Of a DNA stretch of 26,400 nt, positions 932 to 24,500 are shown in pieces; the first letter of the stretch is position 1, and every line of letters starts with the position of its first letter. A program made the position numbers and the translations under genes. A model generated the notes under the pieces. That model ran no database searches and had not been told where the DNA came from. It was given only the letters and a program-made list of their open reading frames with translations. The DNA is taken from positions 1-26,400 of the IMG/VR virus record IMGVR_UViG_3300021961_000540; one strand, 5' to 3'. Origin of the DNA: a virus.

Positions 932-1154
932 GGAACTTATTAAAGTAGCTGAAGAAGAAATTATTGTGCACGGCGGAGAAGATGAATTAGCGGCTGATAG
1001 ATTAAAAAATGCAGCAGCTACAAAAAAACTTGCAATATTTGATGCTTTTGAAATATTAAATAGAATAGAGATTGAAAAAGCATTATTAGAAAATAAACCT
1101 ATAGATAAAGAAGAAAAATCTTTTAGTGGGTTTGCAGAAAAAAGATCTAAATAA
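876..1154 (+). CDS. Small helical protein before terL, candidate small terminase subunit
   Basis: A 92-residue charged, mostly helical protein (start MTAKEQKNRI; core with KAVEELIKVAEEE and LKNAAATKKLAIFDAFEIL). The frame is also open from a TTG at 870. I prefer the ATG at 876, which lies inside the last part of the previous gene and overlaps it by 56 bases in another frame. The stop at 1152-1154 overlaps the terL ATG (TAATG), which suggests coupled translation. From memory, a small protein with the LKNAAATKKLAIFDAFEIL core precedes terL in related marine phages. Position and size suit a small terminase (DNA-recognition) subunit, but no helix-turn-helix is obvious, so the role is inferred from position only. 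Confidence 0.6.
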   Translation: MTAKEQKNRIIQSGYKAVEELIKVAEEEIIVHGGEDELAADRLKNAAATKKLAIFDAFEILNRIEIEKALLENKPIDKEEKSFSGFAEKRSK

Positions 1155-3364
1155 TGTATAAACAAACATTATTAAATATAGTTGAGCCGATTAAAAAAAC
1201 AACTATTCATAGATTGAATGCTAAAAAAGCATGGAAATACGGCTACAATGAAGAACACGATATTATTGTTATAAGTAAAAGCGGTAAGATTGGTGAAATA
1301 TACCAGATACAGAATTTGTGTATAGCATTACCGGAAGTGCCTAAAAAGGTAGATAACAACAATAATAAATGGCAACCTCATGAATACCCAAAAGATTTAA
1401 AGAATATAAAAAGTATTTTTGATTGGGAAGGGTATCCATTAGAATTTAAAGAAAAATGGTATGCATATATTGATAGAGAATTTACCAGACGCGAAGAAGG
1501 ATATTGGTTTTATAACAAGGATATACCTACTTATATTACTGGTTCTCATTACATGTACTTGCAGCACACCAAAATTGATGTTGGGCAACCAGATTATAGA
1601 GAAGCAAATAGACTATTCTTTATATTCTGGGAAGCTTGCAAAGCAGATAAAAGGTGCTACGGAATGTGTTACCTTAAAAATAGACGGTCAGGTTTTAGTT
1701 TTATGTCCAGCTCTGAAACAGTACATCAAGCCACAATTACTTCAGATGCCAGGTTCGGTATATTATCAAAGTCTGGATCGGATGCAAAAAAAATGTTTAC
1801 CGATAAAGTCGTTCCCATATCGGTCAACTACCCGTTCTTTTTTAAACCAATACAGGACGGGATGGATAGGCCAAAGTCGGAGCTTGCATACAGGGTCCCG
1901 GCCTCAAAGCTTACCAGAAAATCGATTACGTCTACAAGCGAAAGACAAACACTAGAAGGATTAGATACTACTATTGACTGGAAGAATACTGGTGACAATA
2001 GTTATGATGGTGAAAAATTAAGATTGCTAATCCATGATGAATCTGGTAAATGGGAAAGACCTGATAATATATTAAATAACTGGAGGGTTACAAAAACCAC
2101 TTTAAGACTAGGTAGTAAAATCATAGGCAAATGTATGATGGGCTCTACCTCTAATGCTTTAGACAAAGGAGGGGATAATTTTAAAAAGCTTTACAATGAT
2201 TCAGACGTCACAAAAAGAAATAAAAATGGGCAAACTAGCTCAGGATTATATAGTTTGTTCATACCTATGGAATGGAATTACGAAGGATTCATTGATTCTT
2301 TTGGACACCCTGTCTTTAATACACCCTCAGAACAAGTACTTGGGCCTGACAATGAATATATATCAATGGGAGTAATTGATTTTTGGGATAACGAAGTTGA
2401 AGGTTTAAAACACGATAGTGATGCTTTAAATGAATATTATCGTCAATTTCCAAGAACCGAAGAGCATGCTTTTCGTGATGAAACAAAAAACAGTATATTT
2501 AATTTAAGTAAAATATACGAGCAAATAGATTACAACGAAGATTTAAAATCTAACGGAGTAATAACCAGGGGAAACTTCCAGTGGGAGAATGGAATAAAAG
2601 ATACAAAAGTAATTTTTTATCCAGATTTAAACGGAAGGTTTAATATTGCTTGGATTCCACCTTTAAATTTACAAAATCGTGTAATATTAAAAAATGGAAT
2701 AAAACATCCTGGAAATGAGCATATAGGGGCATTTGGATGTGACTCTTATGATATTTCCGGTACAACAGATGGTAGAGGATCAAAAGGAGCACTACACGGA
2801 CTTACTAAATTTAGTATGGAAGATGCGCCTGCAAATACATTTTTTTTAGAATATATAGCTAGACCACAAACAGCTGAAATATTCTTTGAAGATGTTTTAA
2901 TGTCGTTAGTGTTTTATGGTATGCCACTACTGGCTGAAAATAACAAACCAAGATTGTTATATTATTTAAAAAGAAGAGGTTACAGGGGTTATTCAATGAA
3001 TAGACCAGATAAAGCTATTAACAAACTTTCTGTAACGGAAAAAGAAATTGGGGGGATGCCCAACTCTTCTGAAGATATAAAACAAATCCACGCAGCAGCA
3101 ATTGAGTCTTATATTGAAAAGCATGTTGGTCTGCAAGAAAATGGTGATTACGGCAATATATATTTTAATAAAACATTAAATGACTGGTCAAAATTTAATA
3201 TAAACAATAGAACGAAATTTGATGCAACTATCAGTTCGGGACTTGCTATAATGGCATGTAATAGGCATTTGTATGAGCCTAAAAAACTTAGAACAACGGC
3301 AAAATTAGATTTTGGCTTTAAAAAATATAACAATCAAGGACATATTTCAAAAATAATAAAATAG
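1154..3364 (+). CDS. terL: Terminase large subunit
   Basis: A 736-residue packaging motor that cuts and translocates phage DNA into the prohead through the portal. The N-terminal ATPase shows a deviant Walker A loop (KNRRSGFS, residues 175-182), of the K-x-R-R-x-G-F-S type from memory seen in crAss-like phages instead of the classical GxxxxGKS. Walker B follows at residues 291-296 (LLIHDE, with D295 and catalytic E296). The C-terminal RNase H-like nuclease shows its first acidic residue in GAFGCDSYD (D530) and its third in KFDATISSG (D690). The length fits crAss-like large terminases. It abuts the portal gene with no gap (TAG then ATG). Odd feature: codons for about residues 213-258 are GC-richer than the rest of the gene. 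Confidence 0.93.
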   Translation: MYKQTLLNIVEPIKKTTIHRLNAKKAWKYGYNEEHDIIVISKSGKIGEIYQIQNLCIALPEVPKKVDNNNNKWQPHEYPKDLKNIKSIFDWEGYPLEFKEKWYAYIDREFTRREEGYWFYNKDIPTYITGSHYMYLQHTKIDVGQPDYREANRLFFIFWEACKADKRCYGMCYLKNRRSGFSFMSSSETVHQATITSDARFGILSKSGSDAKKMFTDKVVPISVNYPFFFKPIQDGMDRPKSELAYRVPASKLTRKSITSTSERQTLEGLDTTIDWKNTGDNSYDGEKLRLLIHDESGKWERPDNILNNWRVTKTTLRLGSKIIGKCMMGSTSNALDKGGDNFKKLYNDSDVTKRNKNGQTSSGLYSLFIPMEWNYEGFIDSFGHPVFNTPSEQVLGPDNEYISMGVIDFWDNEVEGLKHDSDALNEYYRQFPRTEEHAFRDETKNSIFNLSKIYEQIDYNEDLKSNGVITRGNFQWENGIKDTKVIFYPDLNGRFNIAWIPPLNLQNRVILKNGIKHPGNEHIGAFGCDSYDISGTTDGRGSKGALHGLTKFSMEDAPANTFFLEYIARPQTAEIFFEDVLMSLVFYGMPLLAENNKPRLLYYLKRRGYRGYSMNRPDKAINKLSVTEKEIGGMPNSSEDIKQIHAAAIESYIEKHVGLQENGDYGNIYFNKTLNDWSKFNINNRTKFDATISSGLAIMACNRHLYEPKKLRTTAKLDFGFKKYNNQGHISKIIK

Positions 3365-8493: not shown

Positions 8494-9234
8494 ATGACAA
8501 AACAAACTACCCCAACTTGGGAAATTAAAGATAGAACTTATTATTTAAAAGGTGGTAAAAGTCCTTTAACATATACAATAAAAGGTAAAAATATATTTTA
8601 TTTTGACGAAGAAAAATCAGAAGAGCGTGAATTAAAATATACAATAAACCAAAAAACCCCATTTGTTGACGAATTTAAAGGACCAGCAAGATTAGGGCAC
8701 ATTGTTTTTACTGATGGACAATTATATGTACCAAAAGAAAAACAAACATTACAAAAATTATTATCATTATATCATCCAGATAGGAATAAAGTTTATTTAG
8801 AATTTGATCCTGTTGAAGAAGCTGAAGATGATCTTGATATTTTAGAACTTGAAATTGACGCATTAAACATTGCTGCATCTATGGATATAGACCATGCTGA
8901 AGCAATTATGCGTACAGAACATGGAAATAAAGTATCTAAGATGACTTCTAAGGAGCTTAAAAGAGATTTATTACTATTTGCCAGGAATTCGCCAGTATTG
9001 TTCTTAGAATTGGCTAATGACGAAAATATTAATATTAGAAACATGGGAATTAGAGCGGTTGAAGCAAACTTAATTTCTTTATCTGAAGATCAACGCACAT
9101 TTAAGTGGGTTAGTACAGGTAAAAAATTAATAACCGTTCCTTTTGAAGAAAATCCATATTCTGCTTTAGCATCTTTCTTTAAAACAGATGATGGAATTGA
9201 TGTATACAAATCAATAGAAAAAAAATTAAAATAG
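8494..9234 (+). CDS. Conserved virion-cluster protein of unknown function (246 aa)
   Basis: A 246-residue soluble protein. The N-terminal half is beta-rich (WEIKDRTYYLKGGKSPLTYTI; GHIVFTDGQLYVPK). The C-terminal half is helical, with MTSKELKRDLLLFARNSP and LANDENINIRNMGIRAVEAN. From memory, the same architecture (WEIKDR at the start, VSKMTSKE-KRDLLLFAR, then PFEENPYSALA-FKTDDG) is found directly after the capsid gene in many marine and crAss-like phages, so it is a real conserved family. Its role may be head completion or decoration, but nothing in the sequence proves this. It is flanked by a terminator on the left and a long hairpin on the right, so its transcript level may differ from both neighbours. 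Confidence 0.78.
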   Translation: MTKQTTPTWEIKDRTYYLKGGKSPLTYTIKGKNIFYFDEEKSEERELKYTINQKTPFVDEFKGPARLGHIVFTDGQLYVPKEKQTLQKLLSLYHPDRNKVYLEFDPVEEAEDDLDILELEIDALNIAASMDIDHAEAIMRTEHGNKVSKMTSKELKRDLLLFARNSPVLFLELANDENINIRNMGIRAVEANLISLSEDQRTFKWVSTGKKLITVPFEENPYSALASFFKTDDGIDVYKSIEKKLK

Positions 9235-9239
9235 TTGCA

Positions 9240-9280
9240 TTATAGTGGTTAGGCCGCTAAGTGCGGCTTAATCATTATAA
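9240..9280 (+). terminator. Long intergenic hairpin, possible terminator or RNA processing site
   Basis: An almost perfect inverted repeat: the arm 9240-9257 pairs with 9263-9280 over 18 base pairs (three of them G-T) around the five-base loop TAAGT, with a GC-rich core GCCGC/GCGGC next to the loop. It lies entirely between the stop at 9234 and the ATG at 9297. No T-run follows on the plus strand (AATAACAAATT), so it is not a classical intrinsic terminator. It could attenuate, protect the 3' end of the upstream message, or be an RNase III-type processing site. Confidence 0.45.
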
Positions 9281-9296
9281 ATAACAAATTATAAAT

Positions 9297-9998
9297 ATGG
9301 TTAGCATAGATACAGTTTATCAAAGAGTATTAGCCGCCGTTAATAAAGAAAATAGAGGGTATATAACACCACAGGAATTTAATTTATTTGCAAATCAAGC
9401 GCAGTTAGAAATATTTGAACAGTATTTTTTTGATCTTAATCAATACTCAAGATTAAAAGAAAATAATACTGAATATGCTAATCTTTATAAAATAACAGAC
9501 GAAAAACTTAGTATATTTAAAACAGAGGCCAATTTAACATATTCTACAAATTACTTTCAATTGCCTTCTAATTTTCATAAGCTAGGTACTGTTATTTATA
9601 ATAGCATAACTGAAGTTGAAAAAATTGATAACAAACAATTATTAGATTACCTAGGTTCAAAACTTACACAACCTTCAACTTCCAATCCTTTATATATACA
9701 AAATACAGCTAATTCTTCAAACGTATTAGGTATAAAAGTTTATCCTTTAACAATAACGTCTTTAATATCATGCAGTTATGTTAGGAAGCCAAATTCTGTT
9801 GAATGGGCTTATACTAATGTAGCGGGCGATGCTTTATATAATGCATCAAATTCCACTAATTTTGAACTTCATAATACGGAAGAGGTTTCTTTAGTATACA
9901 AAATATTATTGTATGCAGGGTTGAATGTTAAAGAAGCTGATATAGTTCAAATTGCTGACGGAAAAGAAACTAAAAAAATAACTCAAGAAAAGTCATAA
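9297..9998 (+). CDS. Head-tail connector / ring protein-like (233 aa)
   Basis: A 233-residue virion protein. The N-terminal helical part has VYQRVLAAVNKENRGYITPQ and a segment ending FNLFANQAQLEIFEQYF, followed by a beta-rich middle (YFQLPSNFHKLGTVIYNS) and a C-terminal helix. From memory, the pattern NK...GYI-P-EFNL-A-QAQ--IFE-YF...LP-DF--L--V-Y marks a family found next to the tail-tube genes of marine phages, probably one of the ring or adaptor proteins under the portal. It ends 3 bases before the next start, so the two are likely made together and may interact. The family is conserved. The exact place in the connector is inferred. Confidence 0.65.
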   Translation: MVSIDTVYQRVLAAVNKENRGYITPQEFNLFANQAQLEIFEQYFFDLNQYSRLKENNTEYANLYKITDEKLSIFKTEANLTYSTNYFQLPSNFHKLGTVIYNSITEVEKIDNKQLLDYLGSKLTQPSTSNPLYIQNTANSSNVLGIKVYPLTITSLISCSYVRKPNSVEWAYTNVAGDALYNASNSTNFELHNTEEVSLVYKILLYAGLNVKEADIVQIADGKETKKITQEKS

Positions 9999-10001
9999 TA
10001 A

Positions 10002-11111
10002 ATGGGATTAATAACACAAACAGCAAGACAGTATTATATCGTTACTGAGAAATTTACAGGAACTGGTTCTTTAAATACATTTACGCTTACATTTGACCCA
10101 TTACCAAGTACAATAAATGATTTTGTAGTATATATTAATGGCGAAGAAATTGATGACGATAATTACACATATAATAGTGGTACCGGTGTAATTGACTTCA
10201 CGCCGTCTTCACCGCCAGATGTGGGTGATGAAGTAACTGTAACATTAAAAAATCAAAGACACGGTAATTACAGATATATATCTTTAGACGACATAGTAAA
10301 TAACTTTATGGTTTCTTATGTTGGTGATGATAAAATTATTACTACAGCAAAAAGATTAGATGTTGTTTTTCATACAAAAAGGGCAATACAAGAATTTAGT
10401 TATGATATTTCAAGAGTTGAAAAAATTCAAGAAATTGAAGTTGGATCAAATTTAACTGTACCATTTCCACAAGATTATGTAAACTACGTGCAAATATCTT
10501 GGATTGATGGAAACGGATTAGAAAGAGTTTTATATCCAGCTACACAAACGTCAAGACCTTCTCAAGCTATACTGCAAGATGATGAAGCTAAATATTTGTA
10601 TGACAATGATGATAGCTTGTTAACTGGATCTTCTGTTGCTACAGATAGATTTGAAGGATTAGAAACAAGTGACACAATAGGGCGTTCAAATGCTGATGAC
10701 TATTTCTTTTCAAGTTCAGAACACAACGACAGTGTATTCGGAATGGGTAGAAGATACGGTGCTAATCCAGAAACAACACAAGCAAACGGAGTTTTTGTTA
10801 TTGATGAATTAAATGGACAATTTGGTTTTAGCAGCAATATTTCCGGAAAAATACTTACTATAAAATACATTTCTGATGGTCTTGGCACAGATGCAGAAAT
10901 GAAGATTCACAAGTTAGCAGAGGATGCAATATACAAATATGTTTCACATGCTATTATAGCTTCAAAAGCAAATATGCCAGAATACATTGTAAATAGATTT
11001 AAAAGAGAAAAAAGAGCTACAATGCGGAATGCTAAAATTAGACTTTCAAATATTAAGTCTATTGAAATGGCACAAGTAATGCGGGGTAAAAGTAAGCAAA
11101 TAAAACACTAA
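10002..11111 (+). CDS. Tail-tube/ring protein with an inserted beta-sandwich domain
   Basis: A 369-residue virion protein. The core begins MGLITQTARQYY and resumes at about residue 85 with NYRYISLDDIVNNFMVSYVG, followed by a helical segment with KRLDVVFHTKRAIQEFSYD and a PFPQDYVNYVQISWIDGNG strand. From memory this is the second ring or tail-tubular type protein of marine podoviruses. Between the two parts of the core lie about 65 residues (TGSLNTFTLTFDPLP through ITP-like strands to DVGDEVTVTLK) that read as a separate beta-sandwich module, similar in style to fibre N-terminal domains. The C-terminus is basic (KREKRATMRNAKIRL). It is coupled closely to both neighbours (3- and 4-base gaps). 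Confidence 0.65.
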   Translation: MGLITQTARQYYIVTEKFTGTGSLNTFTLTFDPLPSTINDFVVYINGEEIDDDNYTYNSGTGVIDFTPSSPPDVGDEVTVTLKNQRHGNYRYISLDDIVNNFMVSYVGDDKIITTAKRLDVVFHTKRAIQEFSYDISRVEKIQEIEVGSNLTVPFPQDYVNYVQISWIDGNGLERVLYPATQTSRPSQAILQDDEAKYLYDNDDSLLTGSSVATDRFEGLETSDTIGRSNADDYFFSSSEHNDSVFGMGRRYGANPETTQANGVFVIDELNGQFGFSSNISGKILTIKYISDGLGTDAEMKIHKLAEDAIYKYVSHAIIASKANMPEYIVNRFKREKRATMRNAKIRLSNIKSIEMAQVMRGKSKQIKH

Positions 11112-11115
11112 TTAA

Positions 11116-14100
11116 ATGCCTGAAATTAAGAATACTTTCCTTAAAGGCAGAATGAATAAAGACGTTGATGAACGTCTAATACAGCCTGGGGAATATAGAG
11201 ATGCATTAAACATTCAGATAGCAACATCAGAAGACAATAACGCCGGTAGTGTACATAATTTACTTGGTAATCAAAAACTAAGTACATTAAATATAACTGG
11301 CGCTATTTGTATTGGTAGTATTGCTGATACACAAAACGATAAATTATATTGGTTTATTTATGGCAGTTCTGTTGATGCTATTGCTGAATATGATGAATCT
11401 ACAGGCACTATCTCACCTGTATTAGTAGATACTTCTAAATCTATTATAAAATTCCCTACAACAAAAATTACAGCTATAAATGTTATAGAAGGATATTTAG
11501 CATGGACAGATAATAATTCTGAACCAAAAATAATAGATATTGAATTATTTAAAGCTAATTCAAGTAACTTTTTTACAACCACGGTTATTTATGATGATAT
11601 ATTAGGCTCAAATAGAAATATAGTTGAATCTGATATAACTTTAATAAAGAAAAAACCTTTAAATGCGCCATCATTAGCTATTAATACTACAGGAGCTAAT
11701 GTACAAAACAATAATATTGATGTAACTGCAACAGGAAATTTTACGGGTATTAATGAAGGAAACCCCACAACAGTAACATTTTCAGCTGATCCTAATTTTA
11801 CTGCAAACCAAATATTTTATATTGCAGATACATCTTATATTAATGTATTTAAATGCGCATTTATACAAATGCCTTCTGGGCTAACAGCGGATATAATATT
11901 TTTAAAAAATGAAAGCATATTAGGTGGAACTTTAACATTTACAAATTTAAATGTTAAAATTGGAGATATAATGTTTGAAAATAAGTTTGTAAGGTTTGCT
12001 TATAGATGGAAATTTAAAAATAATCAATATTCTGTTATTTCTCCATTTTCAGAAATTGCATTTAGACCATATGGAGCTATAGAATATGATTTTGAAAAAG
12101 GTTATAATAACTCAATGCAAAATCAAACTAGATCTATATTACTTGGTGAAATTAATGTTCAAGATACAAATATTGAATCTGTTGATATTTTATATAAAGA
12201 ATCTAATAATACAAATATATACATATATAAAAGTATTAAAAAAGAAGATTTAGATGGGTATGGTACAAATATAGTGCCATATATATGCACAACAACAATA
12301 ACAGGTGAAAGTGTTTATAGTGTATTGCCAGAGTCTCAATTATTAAGAAGCTATGATAATGTTCCGTACAGAGCCAAAGCAATGGAAATATCAAGCAATA
12401 GAATAATATTTGGTAATTATATAGACGGATTAAATATAACTTTAGATTCCAGCTTTAATTATCAACCTTATAGCCCTTCATTTAATGTTAGTATTGTTGG
12501 GAGAGGAGCAGCTCCTTTAAATAGATCTATAAAAGCGCATCGTAAATACCAATTAGGTATTGTATTTGAAGATGAATATGGAAGACAAACAACTGTATAT
12601 TCTAATGACAGTGGAATTATAAAAAGTGATTTTCCAAGATTAAATGCATTAACTGATCCGGGAAAAAGAATACAGGTTTCAATGAATGCATTGCCATCAG
12701 GTATAACATTTGATGACAGAATCAAAACATTTAAATATTTTATTAAAGAAAACTCTCAAGGATATTATAATATAATAATCTATAAAGCTTTTAATGATAA
12801 TCAAAATGCTAATTTTTTATGGCTAGTTATACCTAGCTACGAAATAAACAAAGTAAATGAAGAAGATTATATAATATTAAAGAAAAGAGCTGATAGTGCA
12901 TTACCTGAAGCAAACCCCTCTTTAAAATACAAAGTCATTGATATTAATGATAGCAAACCAAATAATGTAACTTCTTCAGAAAATTTTGAAGGTTATTTTT
13001 TCTTAAAAATTGAAAAAGATTCTTTTGGTGCTGCTACTGATTCAACTTTAACCCCATCATTTGTAGGGTCCTGGGCATCGCCAATTTTTGAAACTGTACC
13101 AGACGAAAATATACTTGACCTATACTATGAAACTGAAGAGTCTTATGATATAGCTGATTATACTACTGCTAAAGAATTAAAATGGTTTAATTGTTTTGAT
13201 TTTGGTAATGGAGTGGAAAGCGATAGGATTAGAGATGATTTTAATGAAGAGACCATAGATAATCAAGTTAGAGTTTCAACTATTGTTGAAGATGGATTTA
13301 AACAAAAACAAAATAAATACGGCTTAATATTTTCAAGTGGTTTATTTAATTCAAGAAATGGAGTTAATGATTTAAATCAATTTAACACTGGAGAAGCCAT
13401 AACTAAAAATTTAAATCCAGAATACGGTAGCTTACAAAAATTACATACTAGAAATAATGATATTATAGCTTTTGCTGAAGATAAAGTTATAAAAATATTA
13501 GCTAATAAAGATGCTTTATACAATGCGGATGGTAGTATAAATTTAACAGCAACTAACGCTGTATTAGGACAAGCAATCCCGTTTAATGGAGAATTTGGTA
13601 TATCTAAAAACCCAGAATCATTTGCTAGCTATGGTTATCAATGCTATTTTGCTGATAAAGCCCGCGGGGTTGTGTTAAGATTATCTGCTGATGGTTTAAC
13701 TGTTATATCCTCCTATGGACTTAATGATTTTATTAGAGATAATTTTAATTCTGATTTAACTAATATAATAGGTAGTTATGACATTTATACAAAACAATAT
13801 ATATTGTCTTTTGATACAACACCAATTATTACTACTACTACCACGACAGTAGCACCTCCAACTACTACAACCACATCAACTACCACAACTACATCAACCA
13901 CTACAACTACAAGTACAACTACAACCACTGCACCACCATTAACTACTACTACAACTACCGCGGCTCCACCGCTCACAACAACTACAACAACTAGCGGCGG
14001 CCCTCCACCGACCACAACCACAACTACCGAACCTCCACCACCAACTACCACAACTACTACAGAACCTCCACAGCCGACTACCACAACAACCGTTCGCACA

Positions 14101-14577
14101 GTTTGGTATCAAATGACCAATTGTGACGATAGTTCTACAATTTATTCTCAACAATATAATGAAGGAAGTTTTGCAATAAACGAAAGAGTTACTTCGGCTG
14201 GTGGATTAACAGCCGTTATTACGGGACAACTATTAGCTGATCCAGGGGGGTTCTTATATGCAATAACTTCTACTGGATTAACAGGATGCCCAGCCGCAAC
14301 AACAACTACTACCACAACTGCTGCGCCAACGACAACAACTACAACTGCTGCGCCAACAACTACTACAACAACTATTCGTTCGGTTTGGTATCAAATAACA
14401 GACTGTTCTGATAGCTCAACAGTGTATTCTCAACAATACAATGAAGGCACTTTTGCAATAAATGATAGAGTAACTTCATTAGGAGGGTTTGTTGGGGTTA
14501 TTACAGCAGAATTATTAGCTGACCCTGGTGGCTTCTTATATGCAATAACCGCCACAGGACAAACTGGATGTCCATAA
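11116..14577 (+). CDS. Tail-tip (muzzle/stabilisation) protein fused to mucin-like stalk and two Cys domains
   Basis: A 1153-residue protein. Residues 1-900 are the N-terminal part of a tail stabilisation (muzzle) protein: the opening NTFLKGRMNKDVDERLIQPG, GEYRDALNIQ and LLGN are, from memory, diagnostic of this family in crAss-like and marine phages, and the part ends with NIIGSYDIYTKQYILSF. Residues 906-992 are a Thr/Pro-rich tract made mostly of blocks of five or six Thr separated by APP, SGGPPP or EPPP. Residues 993-1059 and 1087-1153 are two copies of a 67-residue domain (VWYQ...GCP, two Cys each, about 76% identical), joined by a 27-residue Thr/Ala/Pro linker. The expected C-terminal part of the muzzle is missing here and is found in the gene at 15542. 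The glycosyltransferase gene follows 12 bases later. The stalk is probably exposed at the tail tip. Confidence 0.82.
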   Translation: MPEIKNTFLKGRMNKDVDERLIQPGEYRDALNIQIATSEDNNAGSVHNLLGNQKLSTLNITGAICIGSIADTQNDKLYWFIYGSSVDAIAEYDESTGTISPVLVDTSKSIIKFPTTKITAINVIEGYLAWTDNNSEPKIIDIELFKANSSNFFTTTVIYDDILGSNRNIVESDITLIKKKPLNAPSLAINTTGANVQNNNIDVTATGNFTGINEGNPTTVTFSADPNFTANQIFYIADTSYINVFKCAFIQMPSGLTADIIFLKNESILGGTLTFTNLNVKIGDIMFENKFVRFAYRWKFKNNQYSVISPFSEIAFRPYGAIEYDFEKGYNNSMQNQTRSILLGEINVQDTNIESVDILYKESNNTNIYIYKSIKKEDLDGYGTNIVPYICTTTITGESVYSVLPESQLLRSYDNVPYRAKAMEISSNRIIFGNYIDGLNITLDSSFNYQPYSPSFNVSIVGRGAAPLNRSIKAHRKYQLGIVFEDEYGRQTTVYSNDSGIIKSDFPRLNALTDPGKRIQVSMNALPSGITFDDRIKTFKYFIKENSQGYYNIIIYKAFNDNQNANFLWLVIPSYEINKVNEEDYIILKKRADSALPEANPSLKYKVIDINDSKPNNVTSSENFEGYFFLKIEKDSFGAATDSTLTPSFVGSWASPIFETVPDENILDLYYETEESYDIADYTTAKELKWFNCFDFGNGVESDRIRDDFNEETIDNQVRVSTIVEDGFKQKQNKYGLIFSSGLFNSRNGVNDLNQFNTGEAITKNLNPEYGSLQKLHTRNNDIIAFAEDKVIKILANKDALYNADGSINLTATNAVLGQAIPFNGEFGISKNPESFASYGYQCYFADKARGVVLRLSADGLTVISSYGLNDFIRDNFNSDLTNIIGSYDIYTKQYILSFDTTPIITTTTTTVAPPTTTTTSTTTTTSTTTTTSTTTTTAPPLTTTTTTAAPPLTTTTTTSGGPPPTTTTTTEPPPPTTTTTTEPPQPTTTTTVRTVWYQMTNCDDSSTIYSQQYNEGSFAINERVTSAGGLTAVITGQLLADPGGFLYAITSTGLTGCPAATTTTTTTAAPTTTTTTAAPTTTTTTIRSVWYQITDCSDSSTVYSQQYNEGTFAINDRVTSLGGFVGVITAELLADPGGFLYAITATGQTGCP
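13831..14091 (+). repeat. Mucin-like Thr/Pro-rich linker coding region
   Basis: This encodes residues 906-992 of the tail protein as repeated blocks of five or six Thr with Ser, Ala-Pro-Pro, Gly-Gly-Pro or Glu-Pro-Pro spacers. The blocks are irregular at DNA level because ACA, ACT, ACC and ACG codons are mixed. The opposite strand therefore shows a poly-Val frame that is only a shadow. Such tracts are extended and, in known proteins, are favoured targets of O-glycosylation. Confidence 0.85.
14092..14574 (+). repeat. Two tandem 67-residue Cys domains with Thr-rich linker
   Basis: Copy 1 is 14092-14292 and copy 2 is 14374-14574, separated by an 81-base Thr/Ala/Pro linker. By eye 51 of 67 residues match. 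Shared landmarks are VWYQ, a Cys near residue 11, SSTxYSQQYNEG, FAINxRVTS, LLADPGGFLYAIT and a final GCP. Many changes between copies are synonymous, so the duplication is not very recent. The two Cys per copy could form a disulfide. I do not recognise the domain family. A carbohydrate- or receptor-binding role is only a guess. Confidence 0.75.
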
Positions 14578-14589
14578 AAATTAAATTAA

Positions 14590-15495
14590 ATGAAATACAT
14601 ATGTGCTCAACCAGCGACTCAATATTTTGGGTGGCAGCTTGATGTATTGCTATATAGTTTTAAGAACGCGGGTGTAAACCTAAATGATGTTCATATACTT
14701 TTGGCTATTCATGAGTCTATTGATCTTTATTTTGATAAACTCATAAAAAAATACCCTGAAGTTATATTTTCATTTTATAAAGACACTAGAGACTATAAAG
14801 GTTATATACCATCAATTAAACAACATTTATTATATAAACATTATTCTGCATTACCTGAATTAGAAAATGAAACTATATTTTTAATGGATGCAGATACATG
14901 TTTAACAAAATCTATTGACTTTAATGGTTTGTTAAATGATAATATTTGGTATGTAAGTGATACTGTGAGTTATTTAGGGTATGATTACTTAAAACAAAAG
15001 GGTAGCGATATATATGAACCTATGTTCGAAATAGCCGGAATATCTGAAGATGTAGTTAAATCTATGAATAACGCATCGGGCGGAGCTCAGTACTTATATA
15101 AAAATGTAAAAAAAGAATTTTGGAAAGATGTTGTTGACATGTCTCATAACTTATATGAAAAAATATCTATTATAAGTAATGAAAAAAAACAAAAAGACGA
15201 AAGCTATTTTCCAATACAAATATGGACAGCAGAAATGTGGGCTATGTTATGGGTCGCTTGGAAACAAGGTATAATGACTTCTGTACATAAAAATTTAAAC
15301 TTTTGTTGGGCTACAGATTATATAGAAAAATGGGATCAATATAGTATATACCACAATGCGGGTGTAACTAATTCTGATAGCGGTTTATTTTATAAAGGAG
15401 CATATATTGATACTTTACCAAATTTAAATTTAGAAATATCAAATGAAAGGTGTTCTTATCAATATTATAAACTAATCAAAGAAGTTTTAAATTAA
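14590..15495 (+). CDS. GT-A-type glycosyltransferase
   Basis: A 301-residue soluble protein with no signal peptide. The first strand (KYICAQPATQYFGWQLDVLL) is followed by an alternating alpha/beta half ending in IFLMDADTCL, a DxD motif (D100 and D102) that in GT-A enzymes binds the metal and nucleotide sugar. SGGAQYL (163-169), the TAEMWAMLW helix (213-221) and IYHNAGV with H255 (a likely third metal ligand) fit acceptor and metal sites of this fold. The TAEMWAMLW and late His pattern loosely recalls protein O-glycosyltransferases of the hydroxyproline/serine type, but that is a weak analogy. The gene lies between the Thr-rich tail protein (12 bases upstream) and its detached C-terminal part, so the Thr tract is the obvious candidate acceptor. 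Alternatives are modification of host surface glycans or of another virion protein. Confidence 0.78.
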   Translation: MKYICAQPATQYFGWQLDVLLYSFKNAGVNLNDVHILLAIHESIDLYFDKLIKKYPEVIFSFYKDTRDYKGYIPSIKQHLLYKHYSALPELENETIFLMDADTCLTKSIDFNGLLNDNIWYVSDTVSYLGYDYLKQKGSDIYEPMFEIAGISEDVVKSMNNASGGAQYLYKNVKKEFWKDVVDMSHNLYEKISIISNEKKQKDESYFPIQIWTAEMWAMLWVAWKQGIMTSVHKNLNFCWATDYIEKWDQYSIYHNAGVTNSDSGLFYKGAYIDTLPNLNLEISNERCSYQYYKLIKEVLN

Positions 15496-15541
15496 TATAG
15501 AGAATTAAAGTGTAATAATAACAATATGAATAAAATAACTT

Positions 15542-16291
15542 ATGGAATCTATAGCTTTTAAAGAAGGTATTAACGGATGGACATCCAGATTAAGTTTTTC
15601 TCCTGAAAGCGCCGTATATTTAAATTCAAATTATTATACATTTAAGAATGGAGAAATGTGGAAACATCATTCAGAAAATGTTAATCATAATACTTTTTAT
15701 GGTACTAAATATAACAGTACAATAAAATTTATACAAAATGAAGAACCCACTTCAATAAAACATTTTAAAACAATTAATTACGAAGGAAGTATTGGGTGGA
15801 AAGCAACATCTATAGAAACAGACCAGCAGTCAGGCAAAGTATTAACCTTTATACCAAAAGAAGGTAAATGGTTTAATAATATAAAAGGCGTTGCTAGCAA
15901 TTTAAATAATTTAGATCCAAAAGAATTTTCAATTCAAGGTCTTGGTAATGCAAGCAGTTTAAGTGGTTTAGGCTCGTCTGTTTTAACAATTAACACGAGT
16001 TTTACTCATAACGCATCGTTACAAAAAGGAGATGTTATATATTACCTTGACGGATCAACAATAAAAAGAGTAGGTCCTGTTTCTTCATTAACAACAGGAT
16101 CAATAGTGTGCCAAGTAGATGGCGATACTTCTTTGCTAAATAATAATTCATATATATTTTTTGGTAAGGATAATGAAATAAATATAGGAGGAGTGATTGG
16201 GTATTATGCTGAAATTGAAATGACAAATGAATCAGCAAACGATATTGAATTATTCCAAGTTAGTTCACAAATATTTTTAAGTAGCAAATAA
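15542..16291 (+). CDS. Detached C-terminal part of the tail-tip (muzzle) protein
   Basis: A 249-residue protein whose N-terminus reads FKEGINGWTSRLSFSPE, then a segment with YTFKNGEMWKHHSE, then NTFYGT, HFKTINYEGSIGW and EGKWFNNIKGV. From memory, this order (F-E--GW-S--SF-PE--LN--YYTFKNG--W-HH...N-FYG...K-LNYEG) is the C-terminal portion of the single-chain tail stabilisation or muzzle protein whose N-terminal portion is the gene at 11116. The two parts are here separate reading frames with a glycosyltransferase between them. The frame is intact and well used, so the part is probably made and assembled as its own subunit. The ATG follows a 46-base A/T-rich spacer. The next gene starts 2 bases after the stop. 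Confidence 0.7.
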   Translation: MESIAFKEGINGWTSRLSFSPESAVYLNSNYYTFKNGEMWKHHSENVNHNTFYGTKYNSTIKFIQNEEPTSIKHFKTINYEGSIGWKATSIETDQQSGKVLTFIPKEGKWFNNIKGVASNLNNLDPKEFSIQGLGNASSLSGLGSSVLTINTSFTHNASLQKGDVIYYLDGSTIKRVGPVSSLTTGSIVCQVDGDTSLLNNNSYIFFGKDNEINIGGVIGYYAEIEMTNESANDIELFQVSSQIFLSSK

Positions 16292-16293
16292 TC

Positions 16294-17148
16294 ATGGACG
16301 AAGAAAATCAAATAAATTTACAAAATGTAGATGTTTTTGCAGTAAATAAAGCTTATACCCCACGGGGCTATCAGGGATTAAGTACTAACCCAATGGCGAT
16401 AACCTCTTTATCTCCTGTACAAGTTAATAATGCTCTTTCTATAGGAAGTATACCTTCTAATAATGTGTCTTCGTTACAGCAAGGACTTTCTGCATCAGAC
16501 ACTCCAAGCGCTTTTGAAAAAGCTAATATTGCAATTGGTGCAGGCGCAGGTTTAGCCGGAATTGCCGCTGGACTTATTGGGGGCGGGCAGCGTAGAAGAG
16601 AACAAAGGCGAGCTAAACAGGAGTATGAACAAATGATGGGTGAGTACAAAAATTTTGAATTTCAAAATGCTTATTTAAATTTAGAAAATCCATTTGAAGA
16701 TTTAAGAGTATCAACTGAAGCCGCGGAATTTCAAGCACAACAAAACCAACAAGCATTAGCACAATCTTTAGATGCATTAAGATCAGGTGGTGGAGGTGTA
16801 GGTGCTGCAGCACTTGCTCAATCATTAGCAAATGTACAAGCACAACAAACACAACGTATTGCAGCTGATATTTCAAGACAAGAAGTAGAAAACGAAAAAA
16901 TGGTAGCAGCAGGTCAAGCACAAATTCAACAATTACAAGCACAAGGACAAATGGCTGTTCAATCTATGGAATTTGATAGAACAGAAACACTACTTGGTAT
17001 GTCTCAGCAAAGAAAAGCAGCGGCTGATGTAGCAAGGCAACAAGCTACAGCCTCTTTAATTGGTGGTATAGGATCTATTGCTGGTGCTGCACTAAGCGGT
17101 GGAATGCTTCCTGGCGGAATAAGTTCATTATTTGGAGGAGGAAAATAA
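16294..17148 (+). CDS. Internal virion protein with hydrophobic and coiled-coil segments
   Basis: A 284-residue protein. Residues 84-99 form a Gly/Ala-rich hydrophobic segment (AIGAGAGLAGIAAGLIGG) followed by a basic patch (RRREQRRAKQEYE). Residues about 130-250 are Gln/Ala-rich and helical with NPFEDLRVSTEAAEFQAQQN. The C-terminus is a second Gly-rich hydrophobic segment (ASLIGGIGSIAGAALSGG). From memory, proteins with NPFEDL-V-T--AEF--QQ and QSL...AALAQ-LAN-QAQQTQ are common in marine podoviruses and crAss-like phages next to the ejected proteins. The pattern suits a protein packaged inside the head and ejected into the cell envelope, in the manner of T7 gp14. Function inferred from composition and position. 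Confidence 0.6.
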   Translation: MDEENQINLQNVDVFAVNKAYTPRGYQGLSTNPMAITSLSPVQVNNALSIGSIPSNNVSSLQQGLSASDTPSAFEKANIAIGAGAGLAGIAAGLIGGGQRRREQRRAKQEYEQMMGEYKNFEFQNAYLNLENPFEDLRVSTEAAEFQAQQNQQALAQSLDALRSGGGGVGAAALAQSLANVQAQQTQRIAADISRQEVENEKMVAAGQAQIQQLQAQGQMAVQSMEFDRTETLLGMSQQRKAAADVARQQATASLIGGIGSIAGAALSGGMLPGGISSLFGGGK

Positions 17149-17150
17149 AA

Positions 17151-17170
17151 AATAATAATAATAATAATTA
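17151..17170 (+). repeat. AAT trinucleotide run in the leader of the 17175 gene
   Basis: Six AAT units (17151-17168) followed by TAAAAT fill the short gap before the ATG at 17175. It is probably an unstructured leader for initiation without Shine-Dalgarno pairing, like the repeat at 92-120. Confidence 0.5.
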
Positions 17171-17174
17171 AAAT

Positions 17175-18533
17175 ATGGCAAATTTAGCTTTAATAAGAGG
17201 AGAAGCTGATGTAGCTCCTAAATTTTTAGATGTAGGTAAAGCCTTTTCAGAGCCTTTTGCAAATGTTGTTGGTAAAGCTGTTGAATTTAGAGAGCAACAA
17301 AAAGCTATAGTAAAAAGAGAAAATGAAATTAGAGCACAAGAATATGCATCTATAGATACTGTTAACGTTTCTCAAATTGGTGAAGATTTACTTGGTGCTA
17401 CTACAGTTGAAGCAAATAATATAAAAAACAAGGCTTTTGAATTAATAAAAAGCAAATCCGATATGGACCCTGTTGAATATAGTATTGCTTTATCAAATCT
17501 TAAAAAAGATGTAGCTGATTTAAATGCCAATATTAAAATTAAAAAATTATTAGGTACTGACTATGCTGATGCTGATAAAATTGGTCAGGCACCATGGCTA
17601 GACGCTAATAATAAAGCAGCATTATTAGCAGCAATTGATACAAATGTTAAAAAAGATTGGGTTAAAAAAGACGGTAAATATTTTTTAACCACTGATGGTG
17701 GAAAAACATTGATTGATTTATCAAATATTAAACCGCCTGAAACTATTGATTATGGTATTGGTGTAGCTATAGAAAATAGTACACAACAAATGCTCCAAAA
17801 TAAATATAAATTAGGACAAACTTTAACTGATCAAAATGTTATAGACACTGCTGATTTGCAAATAAGATCAATGAATCCTTCTCAAATTAAATCTGCAGCA
17901 TTACATTTTAATGTAGCTGGTAATACAGAAGAATCACAAAGAGATTATTATAATAAATCACTTGATGAAATTACTGAAGATGTAAGAAATGCAATGGTTA
18001 GCCGTTTAAAAGGTATACAGTCTTCATTAAATACCAAATTAAGTCAAGCTAATGCCCCTAAATCCGGTACCAATGAACCATATGTTGCACAAGTTGCTAA
18101 TAGAATTAAAAAAGCAATAGAAACTGAGCAAGGGACAATGAATGAATCTACTTTTATTAAAATAGCAAATGAAACATTGAGCCCATCAGCAAAAAGATCG
18201 GGTAAACTATTTACAGATAGAAATGAAGGCAAAGTACTTTATGTTCAAAACGCTTTAATGGCACAAAAAGAATTAGACTTAGAGCCGTCTGAAAAAAAAT
18301 CTAAAGCAGATTTTGAAAAAGAATTTAACGAATTATACCCAGTTGGAGCAGGAAATATATTTTTAAATGGCAATTTACTTGATATAAATTTATCAGATCC
18401 AAGAGCAATTGGAGAAGAAGTTTTGGGGCAAAGTGGTGTTAGTGATTTTGAAAAATTTATATCTAAATACTTACCACCATTGAGTATACCATCAATTAAA
18501 AAAGCCGCAGTAGAAAAAGCCGCATTACCTTAA
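17175..18533 (+). CDS. Internal virion (cargo-like) protein (452 aa)
   Basis: A 452-residue charged, mainly helical soluble protein. The N-terminal helix region contains FSEPFANVVGKAVEFREQQK, then a long helical part (IKNKAFELIKSKSDMDPVEY) and a globular C-terminal half ending in a short Ala/Lys-rich tail. No enzyme motif is visible. It sits between the hydrophobic internal protein and the giant 2135-residue protein with gaps of 26 and 11 bases. Proteins in this place in related phages are virion components carried inside the capsid, so an internal or cargo role is likely but not shown by the sequence itself. A scaffold-like or tail-chaperone role cannot be ruled out. Confidence 0.55.
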   Translation: MANLALIRGEADVAPKFLDVGKAFSEPFANVVGKAVEFREQQKAIVKRENEIRAQEYASIDTVNVSQIGEDLLGATTVEANNIKNKAFELIKSKSDMDPVEYSIALSNLKKDVADLNANIKIKKLLGTDYADADKIGQAPWLDANNKAALLAAIDTNVKKDWVKKDGKYFLTTDGGKTLIDLSNIKPPETIDYGIGVAIENSTQQMLQNKYKLGQTLTDQNVIDTADLQIRSMNPSQIKSAALHFNVAGNTEESQRDYYNKSLDEITEDVRNAMVSRLKGIQSSLNTKLSQANAPKSGTNEPYVAQVANRIKKAIETEQGTMNESTFIKIANETLSPSAKRSGKLFTDRNEGKVLYVQNALMAQKELDLEPSEKKSKADFEKEFNELYPVGAGNIFLNGNLLDINLSDPRAIGEEVLGQSGVSDFEKFISKYLPPLSIPSIKKAAVEKAALP

Positions 18534-18544
18534 ATTAAATATAC

Positions 18545-21500
18545 ATGGAAGAAATTTTTGAATACGAAGGCCAAGAATTTACATTAGCTGAAGTAGAACA
18601 AGCTGCTAGCACAAAAGGTTTAAGTGTAGATGATTATACTAAACAATATAATATTTCTCGTAAAGAGGGAAAGATAACTCCTCCACAGGAAGAACAGGGT
18701 GTAGCTGCGGAGGAAATTGTAGCACCCGAAACACAGCCAAGCGTTACGGAATTACAGCAGGAAGATATTTCTTTGGATTCACAAGAAATTAGTATTGAAG
18801 AAAAAAGAAAACTGCCATATGCCGTATCTCAATCTTTAATAAGAGATAAAAAAGAATTTACAATACAAAATGTAGATAAGGCTTTATTAGATTTTGAAAA
18901 AGCAAAAAATATTCCTATTGCTGAAAGAATTGTTGATGAAAGTGGTATACAGAAATTTAAAACAATATCTTATAATTTATTTGGAGAAGATGGAGCCGGC
19001 GGGGAATTTGGACCTTCCGTAAAAAGTAGATATCAAGCCGCGACTACTGCTGTTCTGGGAGCAATGCAAGCTTTATATACTACACCCTCAGCTGGAGTTG
19101 GGGTTGCGGGGGCGGTGCCAAGCATTGTTAGAGCTACCCAACCTGATTATGAGGCTTTAGTTGATAAACAAAAAGAAAGCTATAAAGAACTACTTAAAAC
19201 GAAAGAGCTAATAAAACCTATGCCTTCTATAACTGATGGTGAAGGAAGTAGTTTATTGGATGTAGCGGGTAGCTTAGTTGGTAGTGCTGCCGAAGTTGGT
19301 ATTTCTGTAGTTCCTACTGTATTAGCATCTACTGCGGCTACAGTATTAGCTGGCCCTGTTATGGGCGCAACAGTGGGGGCAACAATATCTGGTGCGGATA
19401 TAATGGGACAATTCGTAACTGATTATAATATAGAAAAAGCTAAAACATTATATAAAGATTTACCTGAAGAAGAAGCAATACAAAAACTTATTAATGATGG
19501 TAAAAACGAATTTTATGCTCCCGCAATGGCATCAGTCCCGGCAATTGCTTTAGAATATGCTGGTATTAAAGGTATTACAAAATGGCTTTCAAGTAATCCA
19601 GCAACAGCAAAAGGATTGGGGAATTTATTAACTGTAAGTAATAAAGAAGCGTGGACAGAAACAGCTCAACAATTACCTGAATACTTTAATACAGCTAAAG
19701 CCAAAGGGTATTCTTTTGACGATGCTGTTAAAGAAGCCATTGAATTTTCAAAAGAAAATGCTTTTAATACATATACTAATGCATTTTTTGGTACATTAGC
19801 ATTTGGTGGCCTTGGAAAAGGAGCTAAGATAGTTGCAAAAAAAGTTTGGGAACCTTTGAAAAATATGCGTGTAGCTATTGATGAAGGTAAAATGGAGGCT
19901 AAAATTGATGAAATTGCAGAACTTCAATATAAAAAAGGAGAGGCTAAAACAATTGATTTAAAAGAAGCTATTGAAGAACAAATAAAAACAAAACAACAAG
20001 AATTAGACGGCTTGATAACAAAAGCGGCTTCAATATTTAATTTTGCTGAAGATAAAGATTTTAATGAAATTAATGATATTGAAAATCTTAAAAAACAATA
20101 TATATCTAAAGTAAAAGATATAAATAATAAAAGAGATGAAATGCCTATTGAAGAATATCAAGAAGCATTGGAAATTTATAAAAATAAATATTTAGAAGCT
20201 CAAAATAGAATAAAAGGTGTTGTAAGCAATATTTCAAGCAAATCAAATGAGTCTGCTCAAAAAGTACAAAAAATATATGATGAAAAAGGTATCAATGGCG
20301 CTGCAGAAATAATTGAACTTTACCGCCCAATGGCTGAAAAAATAGCTATGAAACGTAAAAATGTTCCTGGTTTTGATAAAGAATTGCTTACAGATGAAAT
20401 ATTAACTGGGGAAAGAGGTGTATTGGATTTAATAAGATCCTTTAAGCCAGAAAAAAATCAAGGAGTTCCGTTACCAGCTTACATTAATAAATTCATAAAC
20501 AGCAGAGCTATTGAAGCATCTCAAAGAGTTTTAAAGCAAGATTTTGAATTAGATGTTACTGAAGCTAAAGGCATAGCAGAAGAAACTACAGCCGAAACAC
20601 GAGTTGAAGTTCAGGAAGAAGCTCAACAAGAAATTCGCAAAGCTTTAGCTGAAGATTTAAAGCTTGATGATAAAACTCAAAATGACATTGTTGCTGCTGT
20701 AGAAAAAACATTGGGTACAAAATTACCCTCAGTAACTGACAAAAAATTTAAACAGGCTTTAACTACTGGTTTTAGAAATGAATTAACAAATACATTCAAA
20801 CAAATATTTGGTAGAACTGAGTCTTATGAGCAATTCTTAAGAGATAATTTTGAAAAAATCTATCCAGCAATTCCACAATCTGCAATTAATAAAAGCTTTA
20901 AAGAATTTAATGAGCCAGTATTAGATCCTAAAACTGGTAAACAATTAAGAGAAAGAACAGCAGAAGGAAAAAAAGTATTTCAAAAAAGAAATATTACAAA
21001 AGCTGAATTTTTAAAATACTTTTTAGATGCACCAGGCAATGTTAAAGGTGCTAGAAAAACTTCTCTTGCTAGTACATTGGCAAGTGAAATTGGATTAGAC
21101 AATGTATTAAATTCATTAGCTAAACCAGAAATTGTAGAAAAGTTTAAAGCTATTCAAGAAATACAAGGGCAAGAAGTACCAAGTAATTTTATTGAGATTA
21201 TATCTAAAAACATTGATAGAGCTATTAATTATTTAGATAATCTACAAAAAAATAATGGAGAATTATATGTTTCATTAGGTTTTCCTGAACTTTCAATAGC
21301 AATTGCAAAAGCGTTTTTAAAAGCAATAAAAGCAGCATTTAAAGGCGGGCAATCTTTTGCCGAAGCTTTACAAAAAGGTATTGATGCAGCAAAAAAATTA
21401 CTTGATAATGAACAAGACAGAAATGCTGTAGAAGAAGCCGCAAAAGAAACTTTTAAAGAAACAAAAGATTTTACTTCAAAAGAAAAAAATGAAGAATTTG

Positions 21501-24500
21501 TTGAAAAAATTGATGGTGTTATTGTAAAAAATAAAATATTTAATATTTTAAATGACAGCATAGTTTCTTTAAAAGAAAATATTAAAAATACAAAAAATAT
21601 AGAAGAAAAAGAACAGGCTATATATGAGTTTTTAAAATATGAATTAGCTGGTCTTGTAAAAATAAATACTGGTACAAAAACAAATAAAAAATATTTATTC
21701 AAAGACGATTCAGTTGCTGTTGAACATGCTTGGGAATGGTTTAAAAAACAAAATGTTTTAGATACAGAAACGTTAAAAAGCTTTAAATTAATAAAAACCG
21801 GTAAAGGAAAAAGCCTATTTTATAAGAATATAGCAATAAATGATTTTAAAGGAAAGTATAGACCAAGCAGTGGTTCAATAGTAATAAAAAATTCTTGGCA
21901 AAGTGTTTATGATAAATTAACTAATCAAAAAGAAGCACAAGATATTATGAACGAAGCTAATGCTTCATATGTTGCTAAAAAAATTGCTAAATTAGTTATT
22001 GAAAATAAATTAGAACTAGCTGAAGATTATTTAAAAACTAGTGGATTATCTAGTGATAGTGCATTTAGGTTATCTGGTAAAATAAGATCTATACAAAAAG
22101 CGAAAAAAGGAGAAAAATTAGTATATGAACATACTCCACCAATACTTGAAATAAGAGAAAATATATTAAACGTAATAGATCCTAAAAAATCTTTTCAAGA
22201 AAATTATAAAAATGTATTGGCTGAATTAAATAAAAGCAAGATAGATTTTGTAACTGAAACAACAACAAAAAAAATAGATGAATTAGGAAGAAAAACAACT
22301 GGTGTTTTTTCTTCAAGATTTGAAGGTGTTATAGATATTGAAAAAGATTTAGCATATATTAATACAGCCACTGATTCTAAAAAAATTAGAATATTTGATT
22401 TTGATGATACATTAGCTGAATCAAAATCTAATGTATTATATACAATGCCTGATGGCAAAAAAGGCAAACTAAATGCAGAACAATTTGCAAAACAAGGTGA
22501 TGATTTAGCTAAGCAAGGAGCAAACTTTGATTTTTCTGAATTTGCAAAAGTAATTGATGGAGAAAAAGGACCATTGTTTGATGTTGCTAAAAAAATAATT
22601 GATGCTAGAGGCTCTGAAAATATATACATATTAACTGCTAGACCAGAAAATGCTAAATATGCAATAAAACAATTTTTAGACGCATTAGGGTTACCATTTA
22701 ATATAGACAATATTATTGGTTTAGGTAATGGGGCCCCACAAGCTAAAGCTGATTGGATTAAAAATAAAGTTAAAGAAGGGTTTAATGATGTTTATTTTGC
22801 AGATGATGCGGTTAAAAACGTTCAAGCCGTAAAAGATGCATTGAAAGATGAAGATATAAAATCAAGAGTACAGCAGGCTAAAAAACCAGCTAAATCTTTA
22901 GATAGACAATTTAATGAAGATATATTACAAAAATCAACTAAAGTAGATTGGTATAAAGAATATTCGCCTGTTAAAGCTGAATTGCTTGGGCGTAAAAAAG
23001 GTAAGGGTAAATTCTTTATTCCATATTCAGCTGATGATTTCGTAGGTTTGCTATACACAACCTTAGGTAAAAGCAAAATTGGCGATGCACAATTGCAATG
23101 GTATAATGAAAATTTATTACGACCATTTTCTCGTGGCATTCAACAATACGAGGCAGCTAAGCAAAAAGCTATGCGTGAATGGGTTAATCTTAAAAAACAA
23201 ATTAAGAAAGATATTCCCGCTGGCTTAAATAAACAAAATGAAACTGGATTTAGAAACCAAGATTCAGTTCGTATATATATATGGCATACTCAAGGGGTTG
23301 ATATGACATCAAAAGAAAATGGATTAGCCAAGGCAGATTTAAATGAAAATTTAAAATATGTTAGAAATAATCCTAAATTAAAATCTTTTGCAGATAGATT
23401 AATGGCATTAAATCCGGAGGGTTATCCTGATCCATCTAAAAATTGGAATGTTGGGGATATTACAACTGATCTTATTTCATATATTAATGATGTAAAAAGA
23501 AAAGAATTTTTACAAGAATGGAAAGATAATTCAGATATAATATTTTCTGATAAAAATAAAAATAAGCTTAAAGCTTTATACGGAGAAAAATATATTGAAG
23601 CATTAGATGATATGCTTTATAGAATGTGGAATGGCCGAAATAGAAGAATTGGTGTTAGTAAATTAGAAAGAGGTTTTCAAGATTGGGTAAATAATTCTGT
23701 TGGTACAATCATGTTCTTTAACTCACGTTCCGCATTATTACAAACTATTTCTGCGGTTAACTTTATTAACTTTACTGATAATAATCCAATTAATGCAGCT
23801 GTGGCTTTTGCTAATCAAAAACAATATTGGAGTGATTTTACAGAATTGTTTAATTCAGATTTTTTAAAGCAAAGACGTACTGGTTTACAAACAGATATTA
23901 ATGCAGATGAAATTGCTAATGCCGCTGCTACGTCTACAAATAAAGCTAAAGCAGCATTAAGCGCAATACTTAAATTTGGGTTTACGCCAACACAAATCGC
24001 TGACTCATTTGCTATTGCCTCAGGTGGGGCATCATTTTATCGCAATAGAATAAAAAAATATTTAAAAGAAGGATTATCTCAAGAAGAAGCCAAGAAAAAA
24101 TCTTTTTCAGATTTTCAAGAAGTAGCAGAAGAATCACAGCAATCTGCACGACCCGATAGAATTTCAATGCAGCAAGCGAGCTCATTAGGGCGTATTATAT
24201 TAGCTTTTGGTAATACACCTATGCAATATGCTCGTTTAACTAAAAAAGCTGCCTTAGATTTGATTAATAATCGTGGTGATTGGAAAACAAATATTAGTAA
24301 AATTATGTATTATAGCGTAATACAAAATATTATATTCTCTGCATTACAACAAGGTTTATTTGCTTTACTATTTTCTGATGAAGAAGACGACGAAGAAAAA
24401 TCAAGATATTTTAGAATAGCAAATAGTTCTATAGATACATTTTTAAGAGGAGCCGGTGTATACGGTGCAGGTGCTGCTACAGTTAAAAATATGATTCTTA

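Follow-up and report, generated by a model that had tools for sequence, protein, structure and literature searches.

A Crassvirales muzzle encoded by two genes, with a Thr-rich stalk and a probable glycosyltransferase gene between its conserved parts

Introduction

The muzzle of the crassviruses is said to be highly conserved and to act as the gate through which the phage's cargo is released (PMC10172136); how can such a protein be found in two pieces? The pieces in question are encoded in a stretch of viral DNA of 26,400 nucleotides (positions 1 to 26,400 of the IMG/VR record IMGVR_UViG_3300021961_000540, termed here "the window"), the source of which is a single metagenomic contig and the record of which is itself 26.4 kb long. 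Three intact and tightly packed open reading frames (ORFs) are concerned: 11116-14577 (1153 amino acids (aa), the N gene), 14590-15495 (301 aa) and 15542-16291 (249 aa, the C gene); the upstream gene ends at 11111 and the downstream gene starts at 16294. Together, the products of the N and C genes constitute a split Crassvirales muzzle. Since two intact genes are involved, with another gene between them, the locus is described as a split variant and not as an ordinary member of the muzzle family.

A search of the literature, including a keyword look in crassvirus papers, returned no description of a muzzle split, a weak negative given that the subscription literature was thinly covered; the passages available on the Cellulophaga phages do not mention the split. 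Split muzzles would mislead the annotation of tail tips in metagenomes.

Two products, one homologous chain

The first-pass annotation, made from the letters alone, had proposed that the two products are the complementary parts of a muzzle that is contiguous in relatives and that both parts are intact rather than decaying. These proposals are borne out. Profile-profile alignment (hhalign) places the N product on residues 1-1076 of gp097 of phage phi38:1, a single ORF of 1324 aa, and the C product on residues 1079-1322 (E 3e-157 and 1e-42, respectively). On gp44 of phicrAss001, which is the muzzle chain of the PDB entries 7qok, 7qol and 8ckb, the N product aligns with residues 4-390 and 1053-1191 and the C product with residues 1200-1284 (E 6e-8, 6e-5 and 1e-10), so that the border lies between 1191 and 1199/1200 and the two ranges are adjacent without overlapping. 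The residues of the N product that align with single-chain muzzles are 1-901, and the C product aligns over its whole length; the latter also matches the Pfam family PF25729 (crAss_MUZ_C, 7e-11), and the former matches PHROG 14478, a virion structural protein (5e-121). The N part terminates at NIIGSYDIYTKQYILSF (residues 883-899), after which a Thr-rich stretch begins, and the C product starts with ESIAFKEGINGWTSRLSF. A match of the two products to unrelated families was not found.

The likeness to gp44 (7qok/7qol; PMC10172136) and to gp097 therefore extends along both products, in the same order and with the same nozzle-type propeller body; the difference is that the known proteins are one chain, whereas the window has a pair of genes separated by a stalk and an enzyme gene. 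The muzzle is also unsplit in the Gundel and elemo phages. Tblastn searches with the N part found matches in Cellulophaga, Flavobacterium, Tenacibaculum and Maribacter phages, and those with the C part found matches directly after N in the same phages, together with weaker ones in gut crAss phages. No relative of the C product was found in bacterial genomes, and single-sequence searches of the PDB with both products gave chance matches only.

A full-length muzzle elsewhere in the genomes of close relatives would have spoken against a split muzzle. Among the contigs of 16 relatives (37-67 kb each), each carries a single N with a single C, or a single C1 with a single C2 (segments defined below; C2 excepted where the contig ends), and no second copy or full-length muzzle is present. 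In two of the relatives' contigs, L103 and L100, the N and C genes are more than 8 kb apart, and in L103 a glycosyltransferase gene comes after the C gene.

Predicted structures

AlphaFold2 was used to model the C product (predicted local distance difference test, pLDDT, 83; predicted template modelling score, pTM, 0.61) and residues 1-905 of the N product (pLDDT 78, pTM 0.75). In Foldseek, the top match of the C model is the muzzle (7qok/7qol, E 4e-5), and VIA aligns residues 1-246 of this model with residues 1199-1371 of the muzzle chain, which is the end of the chain (Z 8.3). For residues 33-900 of the N model, the top VIA match is the muzzle chain 7qol_P (Z 16.9), with P22 gp10-type nozzle proteins among those ranking below it. 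The two models map mainly to complementary ranges of 7qol_P. The last strands of the N model reach chain residues 1216-1235, slightly past the border based on sequence; possibly the model closes without its partner. The parts of the N model with low confidence include residues 1-53 and 876-905, the latter being at the break; this may fit a missing partner, or else a shallow alignment.

A muzzle cut and reordered at several joints

A survey of IMG/VR loci (handles beginning with L) followed four segments, termed P, M, C1 and C2 (Table 1). Each is present once per locus, in six gene arrangements over some 90 loci, a count that includes some contigs fetched twice and excludes incomplete loci. With a comma for a gene boundary, these are the single chain P-M-C1-C2; the window's own P-M, C1-C2 (16 loci); P-M-C1, C2 (52 loci); P-M, C1, C2 (2 loci); P-C1, M-stalk, C2 (L008/L073, L009 and L011); and P-C1-M-stalk, C2 (L007/L071, as well as L006/L070, where C2 is elsewhere in the contig). 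Segment M has thus changed its place or its gene in L006-L009 and L011; in the contig of L011, profile A2 locates it in a separate gene. Profile A1 was too variable for scanning the collection. Fetches with other C proteins brought in more loci with the order P-M, glycosyltransferase, C1-C2, as well as L138, which is unsplit and has neither stalk nor enzyme.

The window's break is also found in cultured phages. In the Cellulophaga phages phi46:3, phi13:2, phi18:3 and phi19:3 (Pachyviridae), where both genes are annotated as structural, an N gene with a long extension is followed by a C gene of 241 aa, as in the window; in contrast to the window, no Thr-rich stalk was seen, there is no enzyme gene between the two, and the genes are 3 nt apart. 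The record of a Manatee Spring phage (MW202828) has the same break, with a "putative glycosidase" between the genes. The split is not a one-off fission.

At the same site, L046, L047, L053 and L057 carry in-frame insertions of around 730-1,110 aa with no fission there (at about 4600-8000 in L046 and L057); no Pfam match was found in the two insertions examined. Such large insertions without a break indicate that the site must be tolerant, and it is probably an exposed loop.

Other loci depart from these patterns in their own ways. The muzzle ORF of L004 (Maribacter phage Panino, 4489-8402) is broken by a frame change in the P segment, elsewhere than the window's break, which is either a sequencing error or a frameshift. 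In L050 (8402-13273), a gene of 1623 aa with a sialic-acid acetylesterase domain (SASA) lies between the muzzle pieces, and in L102 (5888-6958) a Radical SAM/SPASM protein lies between the stalk and the C gene.

A conserved viral part thus appears to be assembled from relocatable fragments. That the muzzle can be cut at two sites, and that a short segment of it can pass into another gene while the whole is still kept intact, was unexpected, and one of these breaks occurs in cultured isolates. Split muzzles therefore amount to experiments of nature that show which joints a viral gate can do without. In the reported insertional fission of mitochondrial cox2 (PMC5374615), one chain has similarly become two complementary genes; that case concerns an organelle enzyme and not a virion protein.

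The origin of the window's order

It had been proposed initially that one gene was broken once and that new material was inserted exactly at the break. For the window, the comparison with near relatives does not support this history. A tree built on segment P joins the window to L006/L007 (100/99) within a larger clade; in the other members of that clade, C2 is a gene of its own, or is missing only where the locus ends. The nearest relatives of the window's N part are split at another site. At the nucleotide level, P, M, C1 and C2 of the window each align to L071, in which C1 lies between P and M, whereas in the window it precedes C2. Identity to L071 is 85% for N and only about 61% for C1 and C2.

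A trace of the earlier order persists in front of the C gene. Positions 15504-15539 are identical at 33 of 36 nt to the beginning of the C2 gene of L071, from its leader through the start codon to the codons that come first (E 1.5e-7), and the best matches to this interval among all loci, the window's own DNA aside, are the C2 leaders of L007/L071. The old start at 15526 opens a frame of 11 codons that is closed by TAA and is out of frame with the present gene, which starts at 15542 with C1. The relic leader and start codon show that C1 was inserted near codon 5 of a once-separate C2 gene. The window's arrangement is derived: C1 has left its place in the N gene and now heads the C2 gene. In the C1 tree, the window's C1 takes no resolved place, so that a near relative is only a possible donor.

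The N part of the window (11116-13749) is 85% identical to L071, and most of the flanking genes are closer to L072/L073/L081, which suggests a recent exchange of the muzzle body.

Stalk and enzyme between the pieces

The material in the break had been described as a Thr-rich stalk, two duplicated Cys domains and a complete glycosyltransferase gene. The stalk, the two Cys-bracketed beads and the intact gene stand; the identity of the enzyme is only probable and depends on a DxD motif. The low-complexity part of the stalk is 54% Thr, and the beads are direct repeats of 246 nt (14047-14292 and 14329-14574) that are 74% identical. The product of the 14590 gene belongs to PHROG 4417 (2e-76), the alignment of which (16 members) has an invariant D-x-D and a shared H-x-x-G; its closest homolog (74%) is in L096, which has the window's split. 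It is because of this invariant DxD-type motif, and not because of a named family, that the product is read as a probable GT-A-type glycosyltransferase (GT).

In relatives, the interval contains enzymes of other kinds. That of L007 has a gene resembling an O-fucosyltransferase (PF10250, 1e-9) as well as one for a carbamoyltransferase (PF16861), and L008 has a 2-oxoglutarate (2OG)-Fe(II) oxygenase (PF13640, 6e-20). Two profiles were built, one for the GT, the other for a second oxygenase-like domain (PHROG 2954, HxD...H by inspection). The lineages scored, 55 distinct ones, had been fetched with the muzzle sequence alone. In 11 of them, including the window, a stalk rich in Thr or Pro is accompanied by a gene between the pieces that resembles a glycosyltransferase or a 2OG-Fe oxygenase; the other 44 have neither, and no lineage has one without the other (p 8e-12, kinship ignored). 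Lineages with a stalk are found in different parts of the tree. Moreover, the oxygenase-like domain accompanies all three Pro-rich stalks and none of the eight Thr-rich ones (p 0.006, kinship again ignored).

Two side observations concern these intervals. From stalk to C2, L007 (10123-13880) carries oxygenase-like, O-fucosyltransferase-like, carbamoyltransferase and 185-aa genes, possibly a stalk-modifying cassette. The PHROGs label "ferrochelatase" on L007:10123-10725 and L008:9624-10775 (PHROG 2954 / 3531) may be wrong, the members looking like 2OG-Fe oxygenases and accompanying Pro-rich stalks.

Glycosylation of virion proteins is known in mycobacteriophages, and phage-encoded glycosyltransferases are thought to be responsible. 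The window resembles them in that a phage enzyme of this type would modify a virion protein; it differs in that its enzyme lies inside the split gene of the presumed substrate and that enzymes at this place vary with the composition of the stalk. For phage Maravista, virion protein glycosylation has been suggested (PMC11256854). Because the type of enzyme varies with the composition of the stalk, glycosylation and hydroxylation of virion proteins in phages of Bacteroidota can be tested directly.

Proposed explanation and its alternatives

The explanation that we consider likely is that the window encodes the split muzzle (tail-tip nozzle) of a marine flavobacterial-type crAss-like phage, and that this muzzle is multi-chain and displays a modified stalk. 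The N gene would supply the body bearing the propeller and the C gene the last conserved segments, which form the C-terminal end of the chain in known muzzles; the two chains would most likely join non-covalently as one muzzle subunit. The break would free a C-terminus at an insertion-tolerant site, and this C-terminus would carry the Thr-rich stalk with its two beads, presumably at the surface of the virion. In view of the perfect co-occurrence of stalk and enzyme, the 14590 product, if active as a glycosyltransferase, most likely glycosylates the stalk, from which the phage may benefit. What the sequences show is the homology and adjacency of the pieces, their single copies in relatives, the recurrence of the break, the rearrangement and the stalk-enzyme association.

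Several points weigh against this explanation. The main muzzle model of Pfam, PF25731, has no HMMER match to the N product at E up to 1, nor to gp097 of phi38:1; where this model fails, the profile-profile and fold comparisons do link N to the muzzle. The C model alone (pTM 0.61) has a low TM to the muzzle, so that the fit holds by domain. For the 14590 product, there is no Pfam, NCBIfam or PDB sequence match, and a search of the PDB with the family profile was empty. The "structural protein" labels in the cultured relatives were given by similarity to phi8:3, the meeting of the two chains in a virion is inferred, and the exact gene order rests on the assembly of one metagenomic contig.

For environmental crAss-like muzzles in general, a wider proposal, on which our judgement is evenly divided, is that they are multi-chain display platforms of relocatable segments with an in-gene modification system (O-glycosylation of Thr stalks; prolyl hydroxylation and glycosylation of Pro stalks).

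The alternative that survives best, though it is unlikely, takes the split as nearly neutral mosaicism: the propeller would tolerate breaks between its segments, and both stalk and enzymes would be passengers carried at a hot spot of recombination. L013, where the break has nothing inserted (4-aa extension, 24-nt gap), fits this reading, as do the many split lineages without a stalk and the mixed affinities of the window's N part and flanking genes; however, neither a perfect stalk-enzyme association nor an enzyme type matched to stalk composition is expected of passengers, and all of the pieces are intact and single-copy.

It is less probable again that the C product is a tail protein in its own right, with fusion having produced the single-chain muzzles instead of fission having produced the pieces. 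On the tree, the unsplit phi38:1, Gundel and elemo sit among A-split phages, and the supported branches force at least 4 changes, so that some of these may be re-fusions. The sampled gut and cultured Crassvirales muzzles are nevertheless single-chain with the same order and, whichever the direction, the pieces stay parts of one homologous structure.

Very little speaks for a rejoining of the halves by a split intein, trans-splicing introns or programmed frameshift or readthrough, which would leave one chain in the virion: a frameshift or readthrough product is conceivable in some relatives, where the spacing of the two genes ranges from -15 to +24 nt, but a whole gene separates the halves in the window, as do around 8.6 kb in the contig of L100. 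A split intein was rejected because the homology of the C product starts at residue 2-5, which leaves no room for an intein C part, and a self-splicing group I or II intron because the stretch 9000-18000 has no Rfam match up to E 0.1. Finally, a chimeric assembly, which a single contig with different nearest relatives for N and C might suggest, is the least credible of all given the intact, closely spaced ORFs, a relic leader that fits a biological insertion and the recurrence of the order P-M, GT, C1-C2 in several other contigs.

Features of the locus

Table 1. Genes and segments of the split muzzle locus in the window
Feature	Position	Strand	Basis
N gene: muzzle N part (residues 1-883), M hairpin and Thr-rich stalk with two Cys beads	11116..14577	+	hhalign; model vs 7qol_P
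Segment P (residues 656-876), last conserved part ahead of the break	13081..13743	+	Hidden Markov model (HMM) segment of the survey
Segment M, IIGSYDIYTKQYIL (residues 884-897), IIGSYDxYTKQYIL hairpin	13765..13806	+	M profile, one match per locus
Thr-rich stalk with two Cys-bracketed beads	13828..14574	+	Composition, repeats
PHROG 4417 gene, probable GT-A-type glycosyltransferase	14590..15495	+	DxD at residues 100-102, HxxG
Relic of a once-separate C2 gene: its leader and former start codon (ATG at 15526)	15504..15539	+	Nucleotide match to L007/L071
C gene: muzzle C-terminal part	15542..16291	+	PF25729 crAss_MUZ_C, 7e-11; model vs muzzle chain
Segment C1 (C residues 1-141)	15542..15964	+	Between P and M in L071
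Segment C2 (C residues 146-249)	15977..16291	+	Separate gene in other members of the window's N-part clade

Elsewhere in the window, a match to a GroES-like co-chaperonin lies at 335-931 and the large terminase subunit at 1154-3364, and an ORF of 2135 aa at 18545-24952 has a weak polynucleotide-kinase match.
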